NCBI GenBank assembly: GCA_003220495.1 | Contig: QHSP01000051.1 | Coordinates: 1-49,626 of the forward strand | Direction: 5' to 3' | Length of the DNA: 49,626 nucleotides | Source of the DNA: Candidatus Rokuibacteriota bacterium | GTDB lineage: Bacteria > Methylomirabilota > Methylomirabilia > Rokubacteriales > CSP1-6 | Shown: piece after piece, positions 28,168 through 37,097 of the stretch | Position numbering within the stretch: the first letter of the stretch is position 1 | Layout: every line of letters starts with the position of its first letter | Translations under genes and position numbers: made by a program | The notes under the pieces: model-generated | The model's database searches: none | What the model saw: only the letters and a program-made list of their open reading frames with translations | What the model was told of the DNA's origin: nothing

Positions 28168-28404
28168 ATGCCCGTCGTCGCTGACCAGACGATCGATTGC
28201 CTCGGGCTCTTCTGCCCGATGCCGATCGTGAAGACACGTGAGGCGCTCCGGCACATGGATCCGGGGCAGGTCCTCGAGGTCACGTCGGACGACCCCGGCT
28301 CCGAAGCGGACATGAAGAGCTGGTCGGCGCGAACCGGCAACGAGCTCGTGGAGATGCAGAGAAATGGCGCGGTCTTCCGCTTCTTCGTCCGAAAGGCTCG
28401 CTAG
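28168..28404 (+). CDS. TusA/SirA-family sulfur carrier
   Basis: A 78-residue TusA-like protein. The family motif is intact: C11 in DCLGLFCPMPIVKT, where the first Cys carries the persulfide, plus a second Cys at 16. TusA proteins accept sulfur from cysteine desulfurases and pass it on for tRNA thiolation, cofactor synthesis or sulfur oxidation. The ATG at 28168 is chosen because AAGGAA (28153-28158) lies 9 bases upstream and homologues begin just before this point; an in-frame GTG at 28141 is the alternative. It overlaps the following desulfurase-like gene by 41 bp, so the two are surely co-translated. Confidence 0.87.
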   Translation: MPVVADQTIDCLGLFCPMPIVKTREALRHMDPGQVLEVTSDDPGSEADMKSWSARTGNELVEMQRNGAVFRFFVRKAR

Positions 28405-29572
28405 AACAGGCCTCCCCGCGGCGGGTGGCCGCGTCTACCTCGACTACGCGGGTTTCTCCCCGGTCGATCCGCGCGTGGTCGCGGTGATGCGGCCGTTCTT
28501 CGAGGGTGGCGTCGGCAATCCGAACGCCCAGCACTCGCTGGGGCTCGAGGCCCGCTCGTCCCTGGATGGGGCCCGTGCGAAAGTGGCCCGGCTGTTCGCC
28601 GCGACCCCCGGCGGGGTGATCTTCACCGCGAGCGCCACCGAGGCGAACAATCTCGCCATCAAAGGTCTGGCCCAGCGGGCCGCCGCCCGGCACATCGTCA
28701 CCTCCGCGATCGAGCACATCTCGCTGATCGACTCGTGTCGCGACCTCGAGAAGCGCGGCTGGAGCGTGACCTACGTGGGCGTGGACGCGGAAGGTCGCGT
28801 CGATCCCGAGGCCGTGGCGAGCGCGATTCGCCCGGACACGGCGCTCGTCTCGATCATGGCGGCCAACAACGAGATCGGCACGATCCAGCCGGTCCGGGAG
28901 ATCGGCCGGATCGCGCGCGCCCGCGGTGTGCCGTTCCACGTCGACGCGGTCGGTGCCGCCGGGCGCGTGCCGCTCATGGTCGACGACTGTCGTATCGACC
29001 TGCTCACGCTGTCGTCGAACGATCTCTACGGGCCGCCAGGCGCCGGCGCCCTCTGGGCTCGCGCGAGCGTCAAGCTGGCGCCGCTGACGGTCGGAGGCGG
29101 CCAGGAGCACGGATATCGCGCGGGGACCGAGAACCTGCCGGCGATCGCCGGCATGGGTGTGGCCGCCGAGCTGGCGCGTGGCGAGGTCGCCGGCGAAGTG
29201 GCGCGTCTGCGCGAGCTGCGCGATCGTCTGCTGGCGGGGCTGCTCACGCGGGTCCCGGAGGCGCGCCAGACCGGCGCCCGCGGAGCCGACCGGCTCCCGC
29301 AGAACGCGTCGATCGTCGTGCCCGGCATGAAGGCCGAGAGCGTCCTGACCGACCTCGATCTCCGCGGGGTCGCCGCCTCGTCGGGCGCCGCCTGCACGGC
29401 GATGACCGGCGAGCCATCGCACGTGCTGCGGGCGATCGGCTGCGACCGCGACACCGCCGAGAGCTCGCTCTGCTTCACGCTCGGCCGCTGGACCACGGCG
29501 AGCGAGATCGATCTCGTGATCGATGCGGTCCCGGCGGTGGTCGCCCGCCTTCGCCGCCTGGCCTCACAGTAG
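28364..29572 (+). CDS. NifS/IscS-like protein with PLP lysine replaced by Asp
   Basis: A 402-residue class V aminotransferase-fold protein resembling cysteine desulfurases. Family features are RVYLDYAGFSPVDP, TASATEANNLAI, His118 (AIEHIS), ANNEIGTIQPV, FHVDAVGAAG, RAGTENLP and the mobile Cys loop with C344 (SSGAACTA, then PSHVL). The residue that forms the Schiff base with pyridoxal phosphate, Lys in (S/A)HKxYGPKG, is Asp220 here: the sequence reads SSNDLYGPPG (GAT at 29021-29023), and the preceding His is Asn. From memory, Archaeoglobus fulgidus IscS has the same Lys-to-Asp change; it lacks normal desulfurase activity, and its Cys can ligate an IscU-bound cluster. The gene overlaps the TusA-like gene by 41 bp. 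A GGAG lies 10 bases before the ATG. Confidence 0.85.
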   Translation: MARSSASSSERLARTGLPAAGGRVYLDYAGFSPVDPRVVAVMRPFFEGGVGNPNAQHSLGLEARSSLDGARAKVARLFAATPGGVIFTASATEANNLAIKGLAQRAAARHIVTSAIEHISLIDSCRDLEKRGWSVTYVGVDAEGRVDPEAVASAIRPDTALVSIMAANNEIGTIQPVREIGRIARARGVPFHVDAVGAAGRVPLMVDDCRIDLLTLSSNDLYGPPGAGALWARASVKLAPLTVGGGQEHGYRAGTENLPAIAGMGVAAELARGEVAGEVARLRELRDRLLAGLLTRVPEARQTGARGADRLPQNASIVVPGMKAESVLTDLDLRGVAASSGAACTAMTGEPSHVLRAIGCDRDTAESSLCFTLGRWTTASEIDLVIDAVPAVVARLRRLASQ

Positions 29573-29573
29573 G

Positions 29574-30266
29574 GTGCGCCTTTTCCTCTTCGACATCGAC
29601 GGCACGCTCGTGAGCGTGCGTGGCGCCGGCCGCACCGCGTTCGCCCGCGCGCTCGAGGAGACCTACGGCACCGCCGGCACGATCGAGCGGTACGACTTCC
29701 GCGGTCGGACCGATCTGCGCATCGTCCACGACTTGATGACGGAGGCCGGGCTGGACGTCGAGCGGATTCGCGATCGTGTCGACGACTGCTTCCGGGCCTA
29801 CGCGCGCGAGCTCACGCGGATCATCGGCGACGGCTCGCGGGTCAAGGTGTTGCCGGGCGTGGCGGAGGTGGTCCGGCGGCTCGGCGCGCGGCCGGACGCG
29901 GTCGTCGGGCTCCTCACGGGAAACATCGAAGCCGGGGCTCGGATCAAGCTCGAGCCGACGGGGCTCTGGCCGTTGTTCCGTGTGGCCGCCTACGGCGGCG
30001 ACGATGCCGACCGGCGCCGTTTGCCCGCGATCGCGCGCCAGCGGGCGCGGGCCATCGGCCACGAGTTCTCGTTCGACCGCATCACGATCATCGGCGATAC
30101 GCCCCTGGACGTCGAGTGCGCGCGCGCCTCGGGCGCGGTGGCGGTCGCCGTCGCGACCGGCCAGCATCCGGTCGACGAGCTGGCGACGTGCCGGCCCGAT
30201 CTGCTCTTCAGCGATCTCGCCGACGTCGATCTTGTCGTCGCGCGTCTCGCCGACGGTACCTCGTGA
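29574..30266 (+). CDS. HAD-superfamily phosphatase (phosphoglycolate phosphatase-like)
   Basis: A 230-residue HAD hydrolase. Motif I is FDIDGT (nucleophile D7, acid D9), motif II LLTGN, and motif IV IIGDTPLD. A helical cap between about 15 and 90 matches the PGP/beta-phosphoglucomutase type. The GTG start at 29574 lies just after the desulfurase-like stop; no Shine-Dalgarno is obvious. Its stop overlaps the CopD-like GTG as GTGA, so all four genes from 28168 form one operon. The physiological phosphoester is unknown. Confidence 0.82.
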   Translation: MRLFLFDIDGTLVSVRGAGRTAFARALEETYGTAGTIERYDFRGRTDLRIVHDLMTEAGLDVERIRDRVDDCFRAYARELTRIIGDGSRVKVLPGVAEVVRRLGARPDAVVGLLTGNIEAGARIKLEPTGLWPLFRVAAYGGDDADRRRLPAIARQRARAIGHEFSFDRITIIGDTPLDVECARASGAVAVAVATGQHPVDELATCRPDLLFSDLADVDLVVARLADGTS

Positions 30267-30760: not shown

Positions 30761-31405
30761 TCAGAGACCGGTGATCTTGATCCCGGAGTTCTTCAGCTTG
30801 TAGCGGCGGTTGATCGTGGCGAGGACCGCGGTGATGCCCTCGAGCGGTCCGGCGTTGCTGAGGGCGCCGACGTCGATCGGGCGCAGACCCATCGAGCGGC
30901 CCAGCTCGCCGACGGTGTCCTTGGCGGCGGCGTCGCCGCCGCACAGGAGCAGATCGCACTCGATCGAGTGCTCGGTCTCGGACAGCTCGTGGGCCGCGAT
31001 GTGGTGGAACGCGGCGACGACCTTTGCGTCGGGCAAGAGGGCCTGCGCCTCTTCAGCCGAGGAGCCTGCCGCCGGCGGGGTGAAGAGCCGTGGGCCGCCG
31101 AACGTGAGCGGTACGACCGCTGAGATCACCACCTTGGCCCGGCAGGCTTCGCGCACTTCCGGGAGCGTCGCCGCGAGGCCCTGCGCGGGCAGCGCGATGA
31201 CGATCACCGTCCCGAGGCGCGCGGCCTCGGCGTTGGCCTCGCCCATGATCGGCAGCTTGTGGGTCTGCTCGCGGAGCTCAGCGGCCTTGGTCTTCGCCCG
31301 CTCGGCGTCGCGCGAGCCGATGATGATCGAGTGGCCGACCCGCGCCCAGCGCGACGCCAGCCCCGCACCTTCTTTGCCGGTACCCCCGAGGATCGCGATG
31401 TTCAT
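30761..31405 (-). CDS. npdG: F420H2:NADP+ oxidoreductase
   Basis: A 214-residue enzyme that exchanges hydride between coenzyme F420 and NADP(H). The N-terminal Rossmann motif reads AILGGTGKEGAGLA, followed by IIIGSRDAERA, whose Ser-Arg fits NADP binding as in archaeal Fno. Blocks VVAAFHHIAAHEL and LLLCGGDAAAK are family hallmarks. It is the last gene of the minus-strand F420 cluster, 11 bp after cofE. It supplies reduced F420 for the LLM-type oxidoreductase at the head of the cluster. Confident by sequence and context. Confidence 0.92.
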   Translation of the reverse strand: MNIAILGGTGKEGAGLASRWARVGHSIIIGSRDAERAKTKAAELREQTHKLPIMGEANAEAARLGTVIVIALPAQGLAATLPEVREACRAKVVISAVVPLTFGGPRLFTPPAAGSSAEEAQALLPDAKVVAAFHHIAAHELSETEHSIECDLLLCGGDAAAKDTVGELGRSMGLRPIDVGALSNAGPLEGITAVLATINRRYKLKNSGIKITGL

Positions 31406-31416
31406 GGCACCACCGT

Positions 31417-32166
31417 TTACCGAAAGAGGTCGCGCGCGGGCTCGCGCAGGAGCGGCTTCGAGCCTTCCTCACTCGGCCTGAGCGCGAGCCCGCGTACGAT
31501 CGCGGCCGGGATGCGGTCGAGCTTGCCCATCACCGGCTCCGCCGCGCCCGCGAGCTCGTCGGCGAGCGCCAGAATCGTCGCCTGCAGCGGCCGGCCGGCC
31601 GGATCGCGTTTCCCGAGATAGCTGAGGAGCGGAGCGAATCCGGCGATCCCGATCGCGACGTTCGTGAGCCCCTCGCGCCAGGGCCGGCCGAACGTGTCGG
31701 TTACGATCACGAACACCTCGACACCGGTGAGGGCGCGCACCCGGTCCCGCATCGCGCGGGCCGAGCGGTCGGAATCCTCGGGCAAGAGCGCCACCGAATC
31801 GGCGTCGACGTTCGACTGATCGATGCCCGCGTTCGCGCAGATCCAGCCGTGGTGGGTCTCGGTGATCAGGACGCCCTTGTCCATGCGCACGATGCGCCGC
31901 GATTCCTTGAGGATCACCTCGACCAGTCGCGGATCCTTGGCGAGCCCCGGCGCCATCGCGAGCGCGATCGGCGAGGGCTGGACGTCGGCCAGCTTCACCA
32001 GCCGCCCCTCGGCCTTGGACACGATCTTCTGGCCGATCACGAGAAGATCGCCGGAGGCCACCGGCGTCGCCTGGCGCCCCGCCGCCTCGACGATGAGCCG
32101 GGCGAGGTCGTCCCCCGGGCGCACCTCGCCGATGCCCTCGACACCGATCACCTCGTAGCGAGTCAC
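31417..32166 (-). CDS. cofE: coenzyme F420-0:L-glutamate ligase
   Basis: A 249-residue CofE. It adds L-glutamates to the lactyl phosphodiester of F420-0 using GTP. Recognisable blocks are GDLLVIGQKIVSKAEGR, HHGWICANAGIDQSN, LPEDSDRSARAMRD and VTDTFGRPWREGLTNVAIG. The length equals stand-alone archaeal CofE. The C-terminal nitroreductase-like FMN domain of mycobacterial FbiB, which reduces dehydro-F420-0, is absent. It lies between cofC and npdG. Confidence 0.94.
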   Translation of the reverse strand: MTRYEVIGVEGIGEVRPGDDLARLIVEAAGRQATPVASGDLLVIGQKIVSKAEGRLVKLADVQPSPIALAMAPGLAKDPRLVEVILKESRRIVRMDKGVLITETHHGWICANAGIDQSNVDADSVALLPEDSDRSARAMRDRVRALTGVEVFVIVTDTFGRPWREGLTNVAIGIAGFAPLLSYLGKRDPAGRPLQATILALADELAGAAEPVMGKLDRIPAAIVRGLALRPSEEGSKPLLREPARDLFR

Positions 32167-32191
32167 GGGGTCCTCGAGCCCGGCTTGGGGG

Positions 32192-32878
32192 TCATGGGCC
32201 CGATGCGGAGATTTGAGTCAGGCCGCCGCGCGCGCGCCAGGTCGAGACGAGCCGGCGGGTCTCGGTGGCGCTCGGCTCGGCCAGCAGCGCCGTGAGGTCC
32301 TCGGGCGCGTCGACGTCGAGTCCGAGCCCCGGCAGGGCGAGCACGCGCGGGGTGAGGCCGTGCGCGCGCGCGGTCTCGAGATGGCGCGCGAAGGAGGGCT
32401 CGCCGAATGTCAGCGGCATCGCATCCGCCGGGGCCAGCGCGACCCCGTTGGTGCCGAGGCCCGAACGAGAAGGGACGAAGACCGGGGCGCCCTCACGCAC
32501 GCCGCCGACGATCTGTCTCAGCTCGTCGGCGGTGACGCACGGCACGTCACCCGGCACGGTGAGGAAAACTCGCGCGCCTCGCCGGGCCGCCTCGGCCTGA
32601 GCCAGGGCGACGGCTGCGGTGTGGCCGCGGTTCACCGTCTCGGAGACCGGCTCGGCGCCGAGCGAGCGCGCGATCGCCGCGGCCGCCGGGTCGCACGTGA
32701 CGACCCACACGCGCTCGAGGTCGGCCGCCGCGAGGGCTCGCAGCACATCCCGCAGCATCGCGCCCGCCAGCTCGCCACGCTCCGCGACGGAGAGGACGCT
32801 CGTCAGCCGCTGCTTGGCGCGCGTCAGATCCTTGACCGGCACGGCGACGACGAGGCGCGGTCCGGCTCCGTTCTTCAT
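32192..32878 (-). CDS. cofC: 2-phospho-L-lactate guanylyltransferase (CofC/FbiD)
   Basis: A 228-residue nucleotidyltransferase. VPVKDLTRAKQRL at the N-terminus carries the nucleotide-binding loop; TVPGDVPCVTADEL and RSGLGTNGVAL are typical. It activates a phospho-C3 acid (2-phospholactate, phosphoenolpyruvate or 3-phosphoglycerate depending on lineage) with GTP for transfer by CofD. The start overlaps the cofD stop as ATGA. Which C3 acid is used cannot be read off safely here. Confidence 0.9.
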   Translation of the reverse strand: MKNGAGPRLVVAVPVKDLTRAKQRLTSVLSVAERGELAGAMLRDVLRALAAADLERVWVVTCDPAAAAIARSLGAEPVSETVNRGHTAAVALAQAEAARRGARVFLTVPGDVPCVTADELRQIVGGVREGAPVFVPSRSGLGTNGVALAPADAMPLTFGEPSFARHLETARAHGLTPRVLALPGLGLDVDAPEDLTALLAEPSATETRRLVSTWRARGGLTQISASGP

Positions 32879-33816
32879 GTCCCGCGCCGTTCCAGCGCCA
32901 CCTCGAGCACACGGCGCGCCAGCGCCGCCTCCTGCGCGCGGTCCGTCATGACGATGTCGGCGACGTCCGCCTCGACGCCGACCCGCGCCAGGTCGGACGC
33001 GCACGCCCGATCGCGCGGGTCGATCAGGAGCCGGCGGAGCCAGGGTGCACAGGCCTCGGCGACGCCGAGCGGCGAGACCGCGAGGCCACGAACCCGCATG
33101 AGGGCGCCGGCCGGACCGCTCACCGCCGCACCGCCGACGATCGGGCTCACGCCGACGACGGGCGCCGTCGTCGAGCGTAGCGCGTCGACGATGCCGGGTA
33201 CGGCGAGGATCGGGCCGATGGAGGTGACGGGATTGGAAGGGCAAACGATGACGACGTCGGCTGTTTGGATCGACTCCACGACACCCGGCGCGGGGCCGGC
33301 GCTCGGCGCGCCGTCATAGTCCACGCCCACGACCTCGACGAGCGCTTTCTCGCGCACAAAATACTCCTGGAACGTGAGGCGCCCACCCGGTGTCCGGATC
33401 ATCGTCCGGACTGGGTCGTCGCTCATCGGCAGGATGCGGACGGCGACGCCGAGCTCGGCGGCGAGCCGCGCCGTCACCGTCGAGAGGGGCTGGCCATCGC
33501 GGAGCGCCCGGGTACGCGTGAGATGCGTCGCCAGGTCACGGTCGCCGAGATTGAACCACGTCTCCGCACCGTGCGTCGCCATCGCGGCCAGACAGTTGAA
33601 TGTCTCGCCGGCGAGTCCCCAGCCGCGCTCGACGTCGAGCATCCCGGCGAGCGCGTACGTGACGGTGTCGAGGTCCGGCGAGATGTGAAGCCCCCAGACT
33701 TCCGTGTCGTCGCCGGTGTTACCGATGACGGTGAGATCGCGCTGCGGGACGCACGTCACGAGACCGCGCAGGAGCTTGGCGGCGCCGGTGCCGCCGGCGA
33801 GCGTGACGACGCGCAT
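32875..33816 (-). CDS. cofD: 2-phospho-L-lactate transferase (CofD/FbiA)
   Basis: A 313-residue enzyme that joins the activated C3 phosphoester to Fo, giving F420-0 or its dehydro form. Hallmarks are the start VVTLAGGTGAAKLLRGL, IGNTGDDTEVWGLHISPDLD, the FNLGDRD block and VCPSNPVTSIGPIL. The ATG at 33816 is the start that matches the family N-terminus; the frame stays open upstream but is not homologous. It precedes cofC with a 4-bp overlap and follows the GNAT-like gene by 2 bp. Confidence 0.94.
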   Translation of the reverse strand: MRVVTLAGGTGAAKLLRGLVTCVPQRDLTVIGNTGDDTEVWGLHISPDLDTVTYALAGMLDVERGWGLAGETFNCLAAMATHGAETWFNLGDRDLATHLTRTRALRDGQPLSTVTARLAAELGVAVRILPMSDDPVRTMIRTPGGRLTFQEYFVREKALVEVVGVDYDGAPSAGPAPGVVESIQTADVVIVCPSNPVTSIGPILAVPGIVDALRSTTAPVVGVSPIVGGAAVSGPAGALMRVRGLAVSPLGVAEACAPWLRRLLIDPRDRACASDLARVGVEADVADIVMTDRAQEAALARRVLEVALERRGT

Positions 33817-33818
33817 GG

Positions 33819-34358
33819 TCAGTCGCGGGCGGTTTCTCGAAGCGTCCACAACGCGGTGCCACCACGCCAGGCGTAGAGACCACTCCCGGGCCGGCCCGCG
33901 AGATCGGGCGGCAAGGTGCCCTCCGGTACCGGGATGAAGCCGAAGCGGACCCAGACGCGATCGAGGCTCTGCGGGCGCGCGAACAGCGTGACGACGCCAC
34001 AGGCGACCGCGTGATCGAGCACCGCGGCCACGAGCTGCGAGGCGACCTCTAGTGGCTCGGCCTCGGCACGTACGACGGGTCCGTGCAGCAACATGGCCTG
34101 GCCGCTTCGCTCTCCGATCACGGCGCCGATCAGGCGCTGACCGCCGTCCGTGGCGCCCCACGCGACGGCGACGTCGTCGGTGGGGGGCCAGGAGACCGCG
34201 GCGAAATCGAAGAGCGGACGGGCCATCGCGGCGTCCGGCAGGGGCTGGTATCCGATTCCCTGCCAGACCCGCGGAACGGTCGCAGAGGCGAGCGAGGGAG
34301 CTGGGACGGCGGCGGGCCGAGCGCCCCCCGCGCGATTTCCAGTCCTACTTCTTGCCAA
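33819..34358 (-). CDS. GNAT-like protein of unknown function in the F420 cluster
   Basis: A 179-residue protein. The C-terminal approximately 110 residues look like a GNAT acyltransferase fold: strands in QRLIGAVIGE and AMLLHGPVVRAEA, a helix LEVASQLVAAVLDHA, then VTLFARPQSLDRVWVRFGF with the usual GF near the end. The acetyl-CoA loop is not a clean Q/RxxGxG/A, so activity is uncertain. Its stop lies 2 bp before cofD and its ATG overlaps the HU stop, so it is locked into the operon. No F420 pathway step is known to need an acyltransferase, and the substrate is unknown. An internal ATG (MARPLFDF) is an alternative start. Confidence 0.6.
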   Translation of the reverse strand: MARSRTGNRAGGARPAAVPAPSLASATVPRVWQGIGYQPLPDAAMARPLFDFAAVSWPPTDDVAVAWGATDGGQRLIGAVIGERSGQAMLLHGPVVRAEAEPLEVASQLVAAVLDHAVACGVVTLFARPQSLDRVWVRFGFIPVPEGTLPPDLAGRPGSGLYAWRGGTALWTLRETARD

Positions 34359-34638
34359 GCACCGCGTCCTTCAGGCTCTTCGCGAGCCGGAACTTGCAGA
34401 CTCGCTTGGCCGGGATCTTGATGGGCTCGCCGGTCTGGGGATTCCGTCCGATTCGCGCCTTGCGGTTCGCGAGCACCAGCTTGCCGAAGCCCGGAAGGAC
34501 GAAGGCGCCGCTCTTCTTCGCTTCCTTGGACGCGAGCGAGAGCGCCTCGTCGAGGATACCCTCGATCTGCTTCCGGGTAAGGCTGGTCTTCTCCGCAAGG
34601 TACGCGACCGTTGCAGTCTTCGTCATCGTCTTCGCCAC
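34345..34638 (-). CDS. HU-family nucleoid protein
   Basis: A 97-residue HU/IHF-type protein. The helical dimerisation part reads SLTRKQIEGILDEALSLAS; the beta-arm region has GKLVLANRKARIGRNPQTG and IKIPAKRVCKF, with the RNPQTG arm tip typical of HU. The GTG start has AGGAGGT 5 bases upstream. It lies between cofH and a GNAT-like gene within the F420 cluster and has its own likely promoter, so it could drive the downstream cof genes. It overlaps the next gene by 14 bp. Confidence 0.92.
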   Translation of the reverse strand: MAKTMTKTATVAYLAEKTSLTRKQIEGILDEALSLASKEAKKSGAFVLPGFGKLVLANRKARIGRNPQTGEPIKIPAKRVCKFRLAKSLKDAVLGKK

Positions 34639-34683
34639 AGGTGACCTCCTGTCGATCGAGGGTGGTGGTTGAACGCGAACTGC

Positions 34684-34690
34684 ATTATTA
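34684..34690 (-). promoter_or_regulatory. probable -10 element of the HU gene
   Basis: On the minus strand TAATAAT is preceded by TGTGG, in an otherwise GC-rich 73-bp gap between cofH and HU. The predicted start gives a leader of about 40 bases that includes the AGGAGGT ribosome site. No clear -35 element is seen. Confidence 0.5.
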
Positions 34691-34711
34691 CCACAGGCCG
34701 ACCCGGCGCGG

Positions 34712-35977
34712 CTAGCCGCGCGTGAAGCGGAATTCTCCCGAAGCGATCAGACGGCGATACGAGCCGAAGCGCGCCTCCGCGTCGTCGACTTTGTCCAGGG
34801 GTGAATCAGGGTTTTCCCCATCTCTATAGGTTCGAATGATCCCGTACACCGTGTCGCGCTGCGCGGGCACCCGCCCGACGTCGCGGATGAGGCGATGGAG
34901 CTCGGCCGGCCCGACGAGCTGGCCGTACTGCGCGCCCGCCGACGTCGAGATCGACTCGTTGATCAAGGTGCCGCCGAGATCGTTGGCGCCCGCCCCGAGC
35001 AGCAGCTGGGCCAGTTTCGGTCCTTCCTTGACCCAGGAGGACTGGATGTTCCGGAAGGTCGCGCCGAGCATCAGACGCGCGAGCGCGTGCATCTTGACGA
35101 CCTCGGCGCCGGTGGCGCCGGGCCGCACGCCCGGGACGAGGCCCTTCGAGTACATCGGCGCTTCGGAGTGGATCAGCGAGAGCGGCACGAATTCGGTGAA
35201 CCCACCGGTGTCCTTCTGGATCGCGCGCAGGAGCGCCATGTGGCGGATCCAGTGAGCCGGCGTCTCCACGTGGCCGTACATGATCGTCGAGGTCGTGCGG
35301 ATGCCGAGCGCGTGCGCCGAGGTGATCACGTCGACCCACTGCTCGACGGTGATCCGGCCGCGCGCGATGATATCGCGGATCGCCTGGTCGAGAATCTCCG
35401 CCGAGGTGCCCGGGAGGGTGCCGAGCCCGGCCGCCTTCAGCTCCGTCAGATATTCTCTGATCGGCAGCCCCGAGCGCACCGAGCCGTACAGCACCTCCTC
35501 GGGCGAGAACGCGTGGATGTGCAGCTCCGGGAGCGCCGTGGTGATCGCGCGCGTGAGATCGATGTAGTAGCGCCCGTCGAGCTTCGGCGGCAGCCCCGCC
35601 TGGATGCACACCTCGGTGGCGCCGAGATCCCGCGCCTCCTGGGCGCGCCGCACGACCTCCGCGACGGGCAGGAAGTAGCCCTCTTCCTCCCGGTGGTCGC
35701 GGCTGAACGCGCAGAACGTGCAGTGCTTGATGCAGACGTTCGTGAAGTTGACGTTGCGATTGACGACGTAGGTGACGACGTCCCCGGCCTGCCGCTGCCG
35801 CAGCTCGTCGGCGACCAGGGTCAGCGCGTGGAGGTCGCGCCCCTCGGCGCCCGTGAGCGCGATGCCGCCCTCGACCGACACTTCGTGGCCGTCGAGAGCC
35901 CGGGTGAGGATCGGGCGGAGATCGCGCGAGACCCAGTCGAGCGAAGCGAAGAGGCTACCAGCGACGCCAGCGTTCAT
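34712..35977 (-). CDS. cofH: FO synthase subunit 2 (radical SAM)
   Basis: A 421-residue radical SAM enzyme with CX3CX2C at C82, C86, C89 (CIKHCTFC), a GLPPKLDGRYYIDL block and the C-terminal MLGATFRNIQSSWVKEGPK. With CofG it builds the deazaflavin Fo from tyrosine and the ribityl-diaminouracil precursor. The ATG at 35977 has AAGGAG upstream. It overlaps cofG by 23 bp. In actinobacteria the two enzymes are fused as FbiC; here they are separate, as in archaea and cyanobacteria. Confidence 0.94.
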   Translation of the reverse strand: MNAGVAGSLFASLDWVSRDLRPILTRALDGHEVSVEGGIALTGAEGRDLHALTLVADELRQRQAGDVVTYVVNRNVNFTNVCIKHCTFCAFSRDHREEEGYFLPVAEVVRRAQEARDLGATEVCIQAGLPPKLDGRYYIDLTRAITTALPELHIHAFSPEEVLYGSVRSGLPIREYLTELKAAGLGTLPGTSAEILDQAIRDIIARGRITVEQWVDVITSAHALGIRTTSTIMYGHVETPAHWIRHMALLRAIQKDTGGFTEFVPLSLIHSEAPMYSKGLVPGVRPGATGAEVVKMHALARLMLGATFRNIQSSWVKEGPKLAQLLLGAGANDLGGTLINESISTSAGAQYGQLVGPAELHRLIRDVGRVPAQRDTVYGIIRTYRDGENPDSPLDKVDDAEARFGSYRRLIASGEFRFTRG

Positions 35978-37097
35978 GGGACTCCTTGACGAGACCGCGC
36001 TCGTCGACCAGGGCCTGGACGCGCGCGCGCAGGCCCTCATCCAGGCACTCGGCGCGCGTCGCGAACTCCGGATAGATCGCGAGACGCTCGCGCAGGACGA
36101 AGCCCTGGCTCTCGGTTGCGCGCCGGAGCTCGGGGATCAACGGCCACGGTTTCTCTGGGTTGATGTGATCGAGGGTCAGCGGCGAGATCCCGCCCCAGTC
36201 GTTGAGACCCGCCGCCAGGAGCCGGGGATAGGCGTCGGGCGAGAGATTCGGCGGCGCCTGGATGTTCACGTCGGACCCGAGGACGAGCCGCGCCACCGCG
36301 AGGGTCCACAGGAGATCCTCGAGCGACGGCTCGGGCGCGTCGCGCATCGGGATCCGCGGCTTGGCGCGGAAGTTCTGGACGATGACCTCCTGGATGTGTC
36401 CGTGCTTCTCGTGGAGGTCGCGGATGGCGACCAGCGTGTCCACCCGCTCGCGACGTGTCTCGCCGATGCCGATGAGCAGGCCGGTCGTGAACGGGATGCC
36501 GAGCTTTCCGGCGAGCGCGATCGTCCGCAACCGCCGCGCCGGCACCTTGTCGGGCGCCCGGTCGTGCGCCATCCCGCGGGCGAGGAGCCGCTCCGACACC
36601 GTCTCGAGCATGAGGCCCATGCTCACGTTCACCTCGCGCAGCGCCGCCAGGTCGCGCTCGCCCATCACGCCCGGGTTGGCGTGGGGCAGCAGCGGCGACT
36701 CCGCCAGAACCGCCGCGCAAACGGCGCGCAGGTACGACAAGGTCGTGCGGTGCCCGTGCCGTCGGAGAAACTCGCGATGGCTCGCGAACGAGGCTTCCGG
36801 CTTGTCGCCGAGCGAGAACAGGGCTTCCTTCGCGCCGAGCCGGCCACCCGCCTGCGCCAGCGCCACGACCTCGTTCGGCTCCATCGTGTGGGCGCCGGGC
36901 TCGCCCGGATCGCGGCGGAAGGTGCAGTAGCCGCAGTAGTCGCGGCACAAGGTGGTCAGCGGCACGAACACCTTGGCCGAGAAGGTGACGGTGCGGCCTC
37001 GGCCGCGGTCGCGCAGCTCGCCGGCGTGGACGAGCAGCTCGGGGAGCCCCGCCGCCGGGGTATCGATGAGCGCGCACGCTTCGTGGTGCGAGATCAT
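35955..37097 (-). CDS. cofG: FO synthase subunit 1 (radical SAM)
   Basis: A 380-residue radical SAM enzyme with CX3CX2C at C51, C55, C58 (CRDYCGYC) and blocks EALFSLGDKPE, MGLMLETVSERL, GLLIGIGET and LNDWGGISPLT that match CofG. It catalyses the second radical step of Fo formation. Its ATG overlaps the stop of the upstream LLM oxidoreductase (ATGA), and its 3' end overlaps cofH. Length is typical of stand-alone CofG. Confidence 0.94.
   Translation of the reverse strand: MISHHEACALIDTPAAGLPELLVHAGELRDRGRGRTVTFSAKVFVPLTTLCRDYCGYCTFRRDPGEPGAHTMEPNEVVALAQAGGRLGAKEALFSLGDKPEASFASHREFLRRHGHRTTLSYLRAVCAAVLAESPLLPHANPGVMGERDLAALREVNVSMGLMLETVSERLLARGMAHDRAPDKVPARRLRTIALAGKLGIPFTTGLLIGIGETRRERVDTLVAIRDLHEKHGHIQEVIVQNFRAKPRIPMRDAPEPSLEDLLWTLAVARLVLGSDVNIQAPPNLSPDAYPRLLAAGLNDWGGISPLTLDHINPEKPWPLIPELRRATESQGFVLRERLAIYPEFATRAECLDEGLRARVQALVDERGLVKESHERWRRW

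Follow-up and report, generated by a model that had tools for sequence, protein, structure and literature searches.

A lysine-less IscS-like protein linked to TusA in Rokubacteria and archaea: a candidate desulfurase-fold pseudoenzyme

A draft genome of Candidatus Rokuibacteriota (5.98 Mb) carries a gene pair in which tusA, encoding a sulfur carrier, overlaps a gene for an IscS/NifS-like protein whose pyridoxal phosphate (PLP) lysine is replaced by aspartate (hereafter D-type, or IscS(D)). Four observations underlie the explanation that we favor: the combined active-site losses, the descent of the D-type proteins from a single clade, their linkage to tusA, dsrE-family genes and iscU, and purifying selection. 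The D-type protein would, with fair probability, be a desulfurase-fold pseudoenzyme acting as a persulfide relay or as a cluster-assembly platform to which TusA delivers sulfur. The window analyzed here is the whole 49,626-nucleotide stretch of contig QHSP01000051.1 (assembly GCA_003220495.1), and its relevant features are as follows.

28168-28404, + strand: tusA, 78-aa TusA-family sulfur carrier with an FCPMP active-site Cys motif (PF01206, E=1.9e-24)
28364-29572, + strand: iscS(D), D-type (lysine-less) IscS/NifS-like protein of 402 aa (PF00266, E=5.7e-66)
28364-28404, + strand: 41-bp overlap of the tusA end with the iscS(D) start
28952-28954, + strand: Gly197 codon, in place of Gln183 (E. 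coli numbering)
29018-29023, + strand: Asn219-Asp220 codons, in place of His205-Lys206 (E. coli numbering) of active desulfurases
29393-29395, + strand: Cys344 codon, the retained mobile-loop catalytic/persulfide Cys, equivalent to Cys328 of E. coli IscS
29471-29473, + strand: Cys370 codon, in place of Arg354 (E. coli numbering)
29574-30266, + strand: HAD-type phosphatase, starting 1 nt past the iscS(D) stop codon

The overlap described in the initial annotation is real, both reading frames lying on the + strand, and suggests that the two genes are translationally coupled. It is not a start-site or frame artefact, because no ATG, GTG or TTG occurs between 28364 and the onset of homology; both the ATG and the overlap are also shared by almost all of some 29 Rokubacterial relatives. 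The TusA has both the PF01206 profile and the CPxP motif of its family, and a profile search with PF01206 found exactly one TusA in the whole genome. The HAD phosphatase is probably co-transcribed with iscS(D). It was considered as a third member of the module and set aside, since by a crude test it adjoins iscS(D) in just 18 of the 33 Rokubacterial loci assessed. Convergent with this operon, on the - strand, is a coenzyme F420 cluster (30761-37097) of npdG, cofE, cofD, cofH, cofG and a probable cofC, among which lies an HU/IHF-like gene.

Active site and kinship of the D-type proteins

The window protein has the IscS/NifS fold: it belongs to aminotransferase class V (PF00266) and its AlphaFold2 model aligns with IscS/NFS1 at a TM-score of about 0.9. 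It falls below the NCBIfam equivalog cut-offs, scoring 418.1 bits against 530.75 for NifS and 354.3 bits against 643.2 for IscS. The initial annotation had read the PLP lysine as Asp220, preceded by Asn219, and His118, Asp194 and Cys344 as kept, and all five residues are as it described (codon 29021-29023 is GAT). In an alignment with solved IscS chains Asp220 occupies the Schiff-base position, and no replacement lysine was found there; nor was a displaced one identified, the protein's five lysines lying at unrelated positions and none being conserved across the clade in a suggestive way. Two losses had been overlooked, those of Gln183 and Arg354, whose equivalents are Gly197 and Cys370.

These changes extend to the whole group. 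Gln183, His205, Lys206, Arg354 and alignment columns 32 and 91 are near-invariant in Lys-bearing relatives and lost in D-type proteins, which retain Thr76, His104, Asp180, Ser203, Thr/Ser243 and Cys328 (E. coli numbering). In row sets that include some duplicate loci, Thr76, Asp180 and His104 are kept in all D-type rows and the mobile-loop Cys in 112/112 rows with a letter in that column. The residue at position 354 varies widely among D-type proteins, and the positive charge of E. coli Arg354 is absent from it. Of the features of a type I desulfurase, the window protein thus has Cys328 and His104 and lacks the Schiff-base lysine together with Gln183, His205 and Arg354. In E. coli IscS, Gln183 hydrogen-bonds PLP, the H104Q, Q183E and K206A variants are each devoid of desulfurase activity, and R354K, in which the positive charge is kept, is as active as the wild type (PMC9978102). 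Because residues are lost whose E. coli variants are inactive, and the charge of Arg354 is gone, a normal desulfurase reaction by the D-type protein would, judged from its sequence, be very unlikely. The earlier doubt about a normal PLP mechanism is thereby strengthened, four residues of the PLP/substrate site having changed together.

The best PDB match of the window protein is Archaeoglobus fulgidus IscS (4eb5, E=1.2e-99), which has SSNDIYGPKG in the columns of the window's SSND motif and belongs to the same clade, so that the initial annotation was right to ascribe the Lys-to-Asp change to it. The AlphaFold2 model (30 clade members; mean pLDDT 89) has a TM-score of 0.89-0.95 to 4EB5; a further PDB entry, 4R5F, is the D199K mutant of the A. 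fulgidus protein. In a tree of 107 sequences made by quick search, the sampled D-type proteins form one clade (SH-aLRT 99) with one change to Asp, nested next to archaeal forms that keep the lysine; a long stem leads to the Rokubacterial branch within it. Against close orthologues, the window iscS(D) has a dN/dS of 0.12-0.21 and is under purifying selection; this, with conservation of the motif across orthologues, rejects a decaying pseudogene or chance lesion. A. fulgidus IscS (4EB5, 4EB7, 4HVK) is the strongest published parallel, sharing the clade, the SSND motif, the loop Cys and about 44% identity. It differs in having been characterized with IscU, the available parts of the sources mentioning no link to tusA, whereas the window gene overlaps tusA and has no adjacent iscU.

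Distribution, gene neighborhood and a second lysine-less IscS

A degenerate pattern, [HN]D-x-YGP-x-G-[AV]-G, was scanned over one genome each of 84,980 species and returned at least 118 loci, of which at least 117 encode genuine IscS-like proteins; one chance match was present among the matches listed. Hosts among these matches are mostly archaea (methanogens, ANME, Bathyarchaeia, Thermoplasmatota, Asgard and Archaeoglobus), the bacterial ones being Rokubacteria and scattered other phyla. The Asp form had been put forward as a bacterial version of the archaeal protein; it does occur in bacteria but is not confined to one bacterium. An orthologue of at least 60% identity is present in 32/34 relatives from the family of the window genome. 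Asn precedes Asp in all genuine matches listed, though the pattern permitted His. Bias of the scan was considered as a cause of the other losses and of the gene linkage and rejected: the pattern fixed Asp and the choice of residue before it, Gln183, Arg354 and the gene neighbors lay outside it, and the Lys-bearing controls were gathered by similarity rather than by pattern.

The most constant neighbor is tusA. Among the matches listed, it is found no more than 900 bp upstream, in the same orientation, in 96 of the 104 D-type loci with sufficient flank, the count of tusA adjacency for which the initial annotation had called, and in 1/39 Lys-, Leu- or Met-bearing loci, where the lone case is a remote outlier (Fisher p=1.4e-25 for the listed loci, which span many phyla and whose relatedness is ignored). 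These scan-based counts come partly from draft genomes, with neighbors called by simple ORF and HMM rules. Outside Rokubacteria the customary operon is tusA-(dsrE)-iscS(D)-iscU: of the 73 listed non-Rokubacterial loci, 45 have a dsrE-family gene upstream and 56 are followed by iscU. All three neighbors occur together in 34 of these loci, tusA with iscU in 15, tusA with dsrE in 9, tusA alone in 7, iscU without tusA in 7 and none of the three in 1. CPxP is present in 75/79 TusA proteins, and a Cys motif is kept in 45/49 DsrE-like ones. In Archaeoglobus itself the D-type genes are just downstream of tusA (L105, L146), with iscU following in L218/L262.

Rokubacterial loci are simpler, tusA being the sole such neighbor in 31/31 listed and iscU adjoining iscS(D) in 0/31. 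The IscU of this genome is encoded elsewhere, within a separate isc operon, and a profile search of the genome for a DsrE partner gave only weak PF02635 matches, none of them near the window. The two-protein module that had been proposed therefore stands in its coupling to TusA but not in its size, as most relatives add iscU and often dsrE, and the Rokubacterial tusA-iscS(D) pair looks like a reduced version of the operon.

An ANME-2 iscU beside a D-type gene (L039:7335-8000) forms a fusion with the first part of a thioredoxin-reductase-like FAD/NAD domain, and Lokiarchaeal iscU genes (L040, L041) have another Rossmann-like extension. Downstream of iscU, Lokiarchaeal D-type loci (L041:2090-4462; L066:2586-4955) encode a CoA-disulfide-reductase-like protein of 790 aa in which a TusA domain stands between two rhodanese domains. 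In a deltaproteobacterial MAG, a remote class-V aminotransferase that keeps its lysine lies between two tusA genes (L240:5321-6523).

A second lysine-less protein occurs in the same genomes. In the Rokubacteriaceae, the family of the window genome, the isc-operon IscS encoded beside iscU (G000:C1:93096-94244) has the motif TAHLIYGPKG, and in 28/28 family genomes examined Lys206 is replaced by Leu or Met and His104 by Gln, while Gln183, Cys328 and, where covered, Arg354 are kept (L161:3085-4308 and L004; also L162-L165, L167, L168 and L180-L200). A genome belonging to a different family of the order (G037) retains the lysine. The isc-operon IscS of the window genome passes the cut-off of one NCBIfam IscS equivalog model, and would therefore be annotated as a desulfurase. 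The sole Lys-bearing protein of the genome's three IscS-type matches is encoded 5 kb downstream of the isc-operon iscS, by a gene that closes the isc region and is followed immediately by cysE (L161:9066-10932). Of the three IscS-type proteins, two have thus lost the lysine, by independent substitutions.

A TusA-fed relay, its alternatives and known systems

If the D-type protein no longer draws sulfur from cysteine by means of PLP, as its active site suggests, what would it do beside TusA? TusA would dock on it and the two would exchange persulfide, most likely in the direction TusA to Cys344 to an acceptor. For most lineages this would be the neighboring IscU, where the loop Cys might additionally ligate the cluster, as it does in A. 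fulgidus IscS. The Rokubacterial acceptor may be IscU, encoded apart in the isc operon, or some other protein, and IscU as partner is here a guess because no iscU adjoins iscS(D) in the loci listed. A further match is present in 20/30 D-bearing genomes, and other strong class-V (SufS-like) matches occur in several of the remaining ten, so the idea that D-bearing genomes lack a cysteine route is unsupported as a general rule. With a Lys-bearing IscS or a SufS-like protein in many of these genomes, cysteine may still be the ultimate source of sulfur, the Lys-bearing enzyme loading TusA.

The first alternative is a purely structural role, in which Cys344 is a temporary Fe-S ligand and never a persulfide, and TusA supplies IscU or a different target on its own. 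A. fulgidus IscS provides its precedent. The protein is reported to have no desulfurase activity (PMC7585200), its loop Cys321 is bound to the IscU cluster in published structures (PMC9769115, PMC7585200), and its authors are cited as concluding that this Cys is a ligand and not a sulfur donor (PMC7585200). Such a role would leave unexplained why tusA is the most constant neighbor, and why it alone persists in Rokubacterial loci where iscU is absent; we regard it as unlikely, though the likeliest of the three alternatives.

The pocket itself invites another explanation, that of an enzyme holding PLP non-covalently, with Asp220 as general base on a PLP adduct and perhaps another substrate. The A. 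fulgidus structure 4EB5 is figured with PLP (PMC9769115); loss of the lysine alone therefore need not mean loss of PLP, and PLP absorbance alone would not refute a non-desulfurase role. The full conservation of Thr76, Asp180 and His104 is a hint that the pocket still binds a PLP-like ligand and has kept part of its function, and to that extent counts against a pure relay, which needs neither. The joint loss of Gln183, Arg354 and His205, the variability of position 354 and the reported inactivity of the A. fulgidus protein all weigh against altered PLP chemistry, which we consider improbable. Still less credible is a persulfide sink or regulator that restrains TusA or reclaims sulfur in competition with the Lys-bearing IscS: the single TusA of the genome and the strict tusA coupling in Rokubacterial loci devoid of an acceptor gene would suit it, but linkage to iscU in most other lineages favors assembly.

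Against these readings, the TusA-fed relay or platform can be set beside known systems. E. coli IscS differs in being an active PLP desulfurase that donates sulfur to TusA, and to our knowledge tusA lies outside the E. coli iscS operon. The E. coli IscS-TusA complex (3LVJ, 3LVK) nevertheless offers the likeness of an IscS-fold protein that binds TusA. The MIS system (MisS-MisU) is reportedly the work of Garcia et al. in 2022. It resembles the D-type operons as a set of minimal archaeal IscS/IscU pairs, and in the tree archaeal Lys-bearing forms are the closest neighbors of the D-type clade, but MisS is described as a cysteine desulfurase (PMC12442378). Methanosarcina acetivorans IscS1 has no catalytic lysine and its authors propose an A. 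fulgidus-like role; it is paired with iscU1, and the recombinant protein was insoluble (PMC7585200). The thiosulfate-transfer module of Metallosphaera cuprina has DsrE and TusA as partners, as in archaeal D-type operons, but its cluster contains no IscS-like or IscU gene and lies beside heterodisulfide-reductase-like genes (PMC4175335).

The Lys-to-Asp change of A. fulgidus IscS and the lysine loss of M. acetivorans IscS1 were thus already known, whereas the extent and genomic context of the D-type clade appear to be new. No prior description of a tusA-dsrE-iscS-iscU operon was found in a literature coverage that takes in few subscription papers, and priority is accordingly uncertain. More speculatively, the D-type operons might represent a widespread cysteine-independent route to Fe-S clusters, in which inorganic sulfane sulfur passes through DsrE/TusA to the loop Cys of the lysine-less IscS and on to IscU; Rokubacteria would then hold an IscU-free derivative in which the lysine of the isc-operon IscS is disabled too and mobilization is split from the assembly platforms.

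A. fulgidus IscS has posed a puzzle in that it assembles clusters with IscU yet shows no desulfurase activity. The conserved tusA-(dsrE)-iscS(D)-iscU operon singles out a probable donor of the sulfur and allows the matter to be put to the test with just four small proteins. It further suggests that members of a large clade, found in methanogens, ANME, Asgard archaea, Bathyarchaeia and a number of bacterial phyla, are misnamed "cysteine desulfurase", as is, through a separate route, the Rokubacterial isc-operon IscS.
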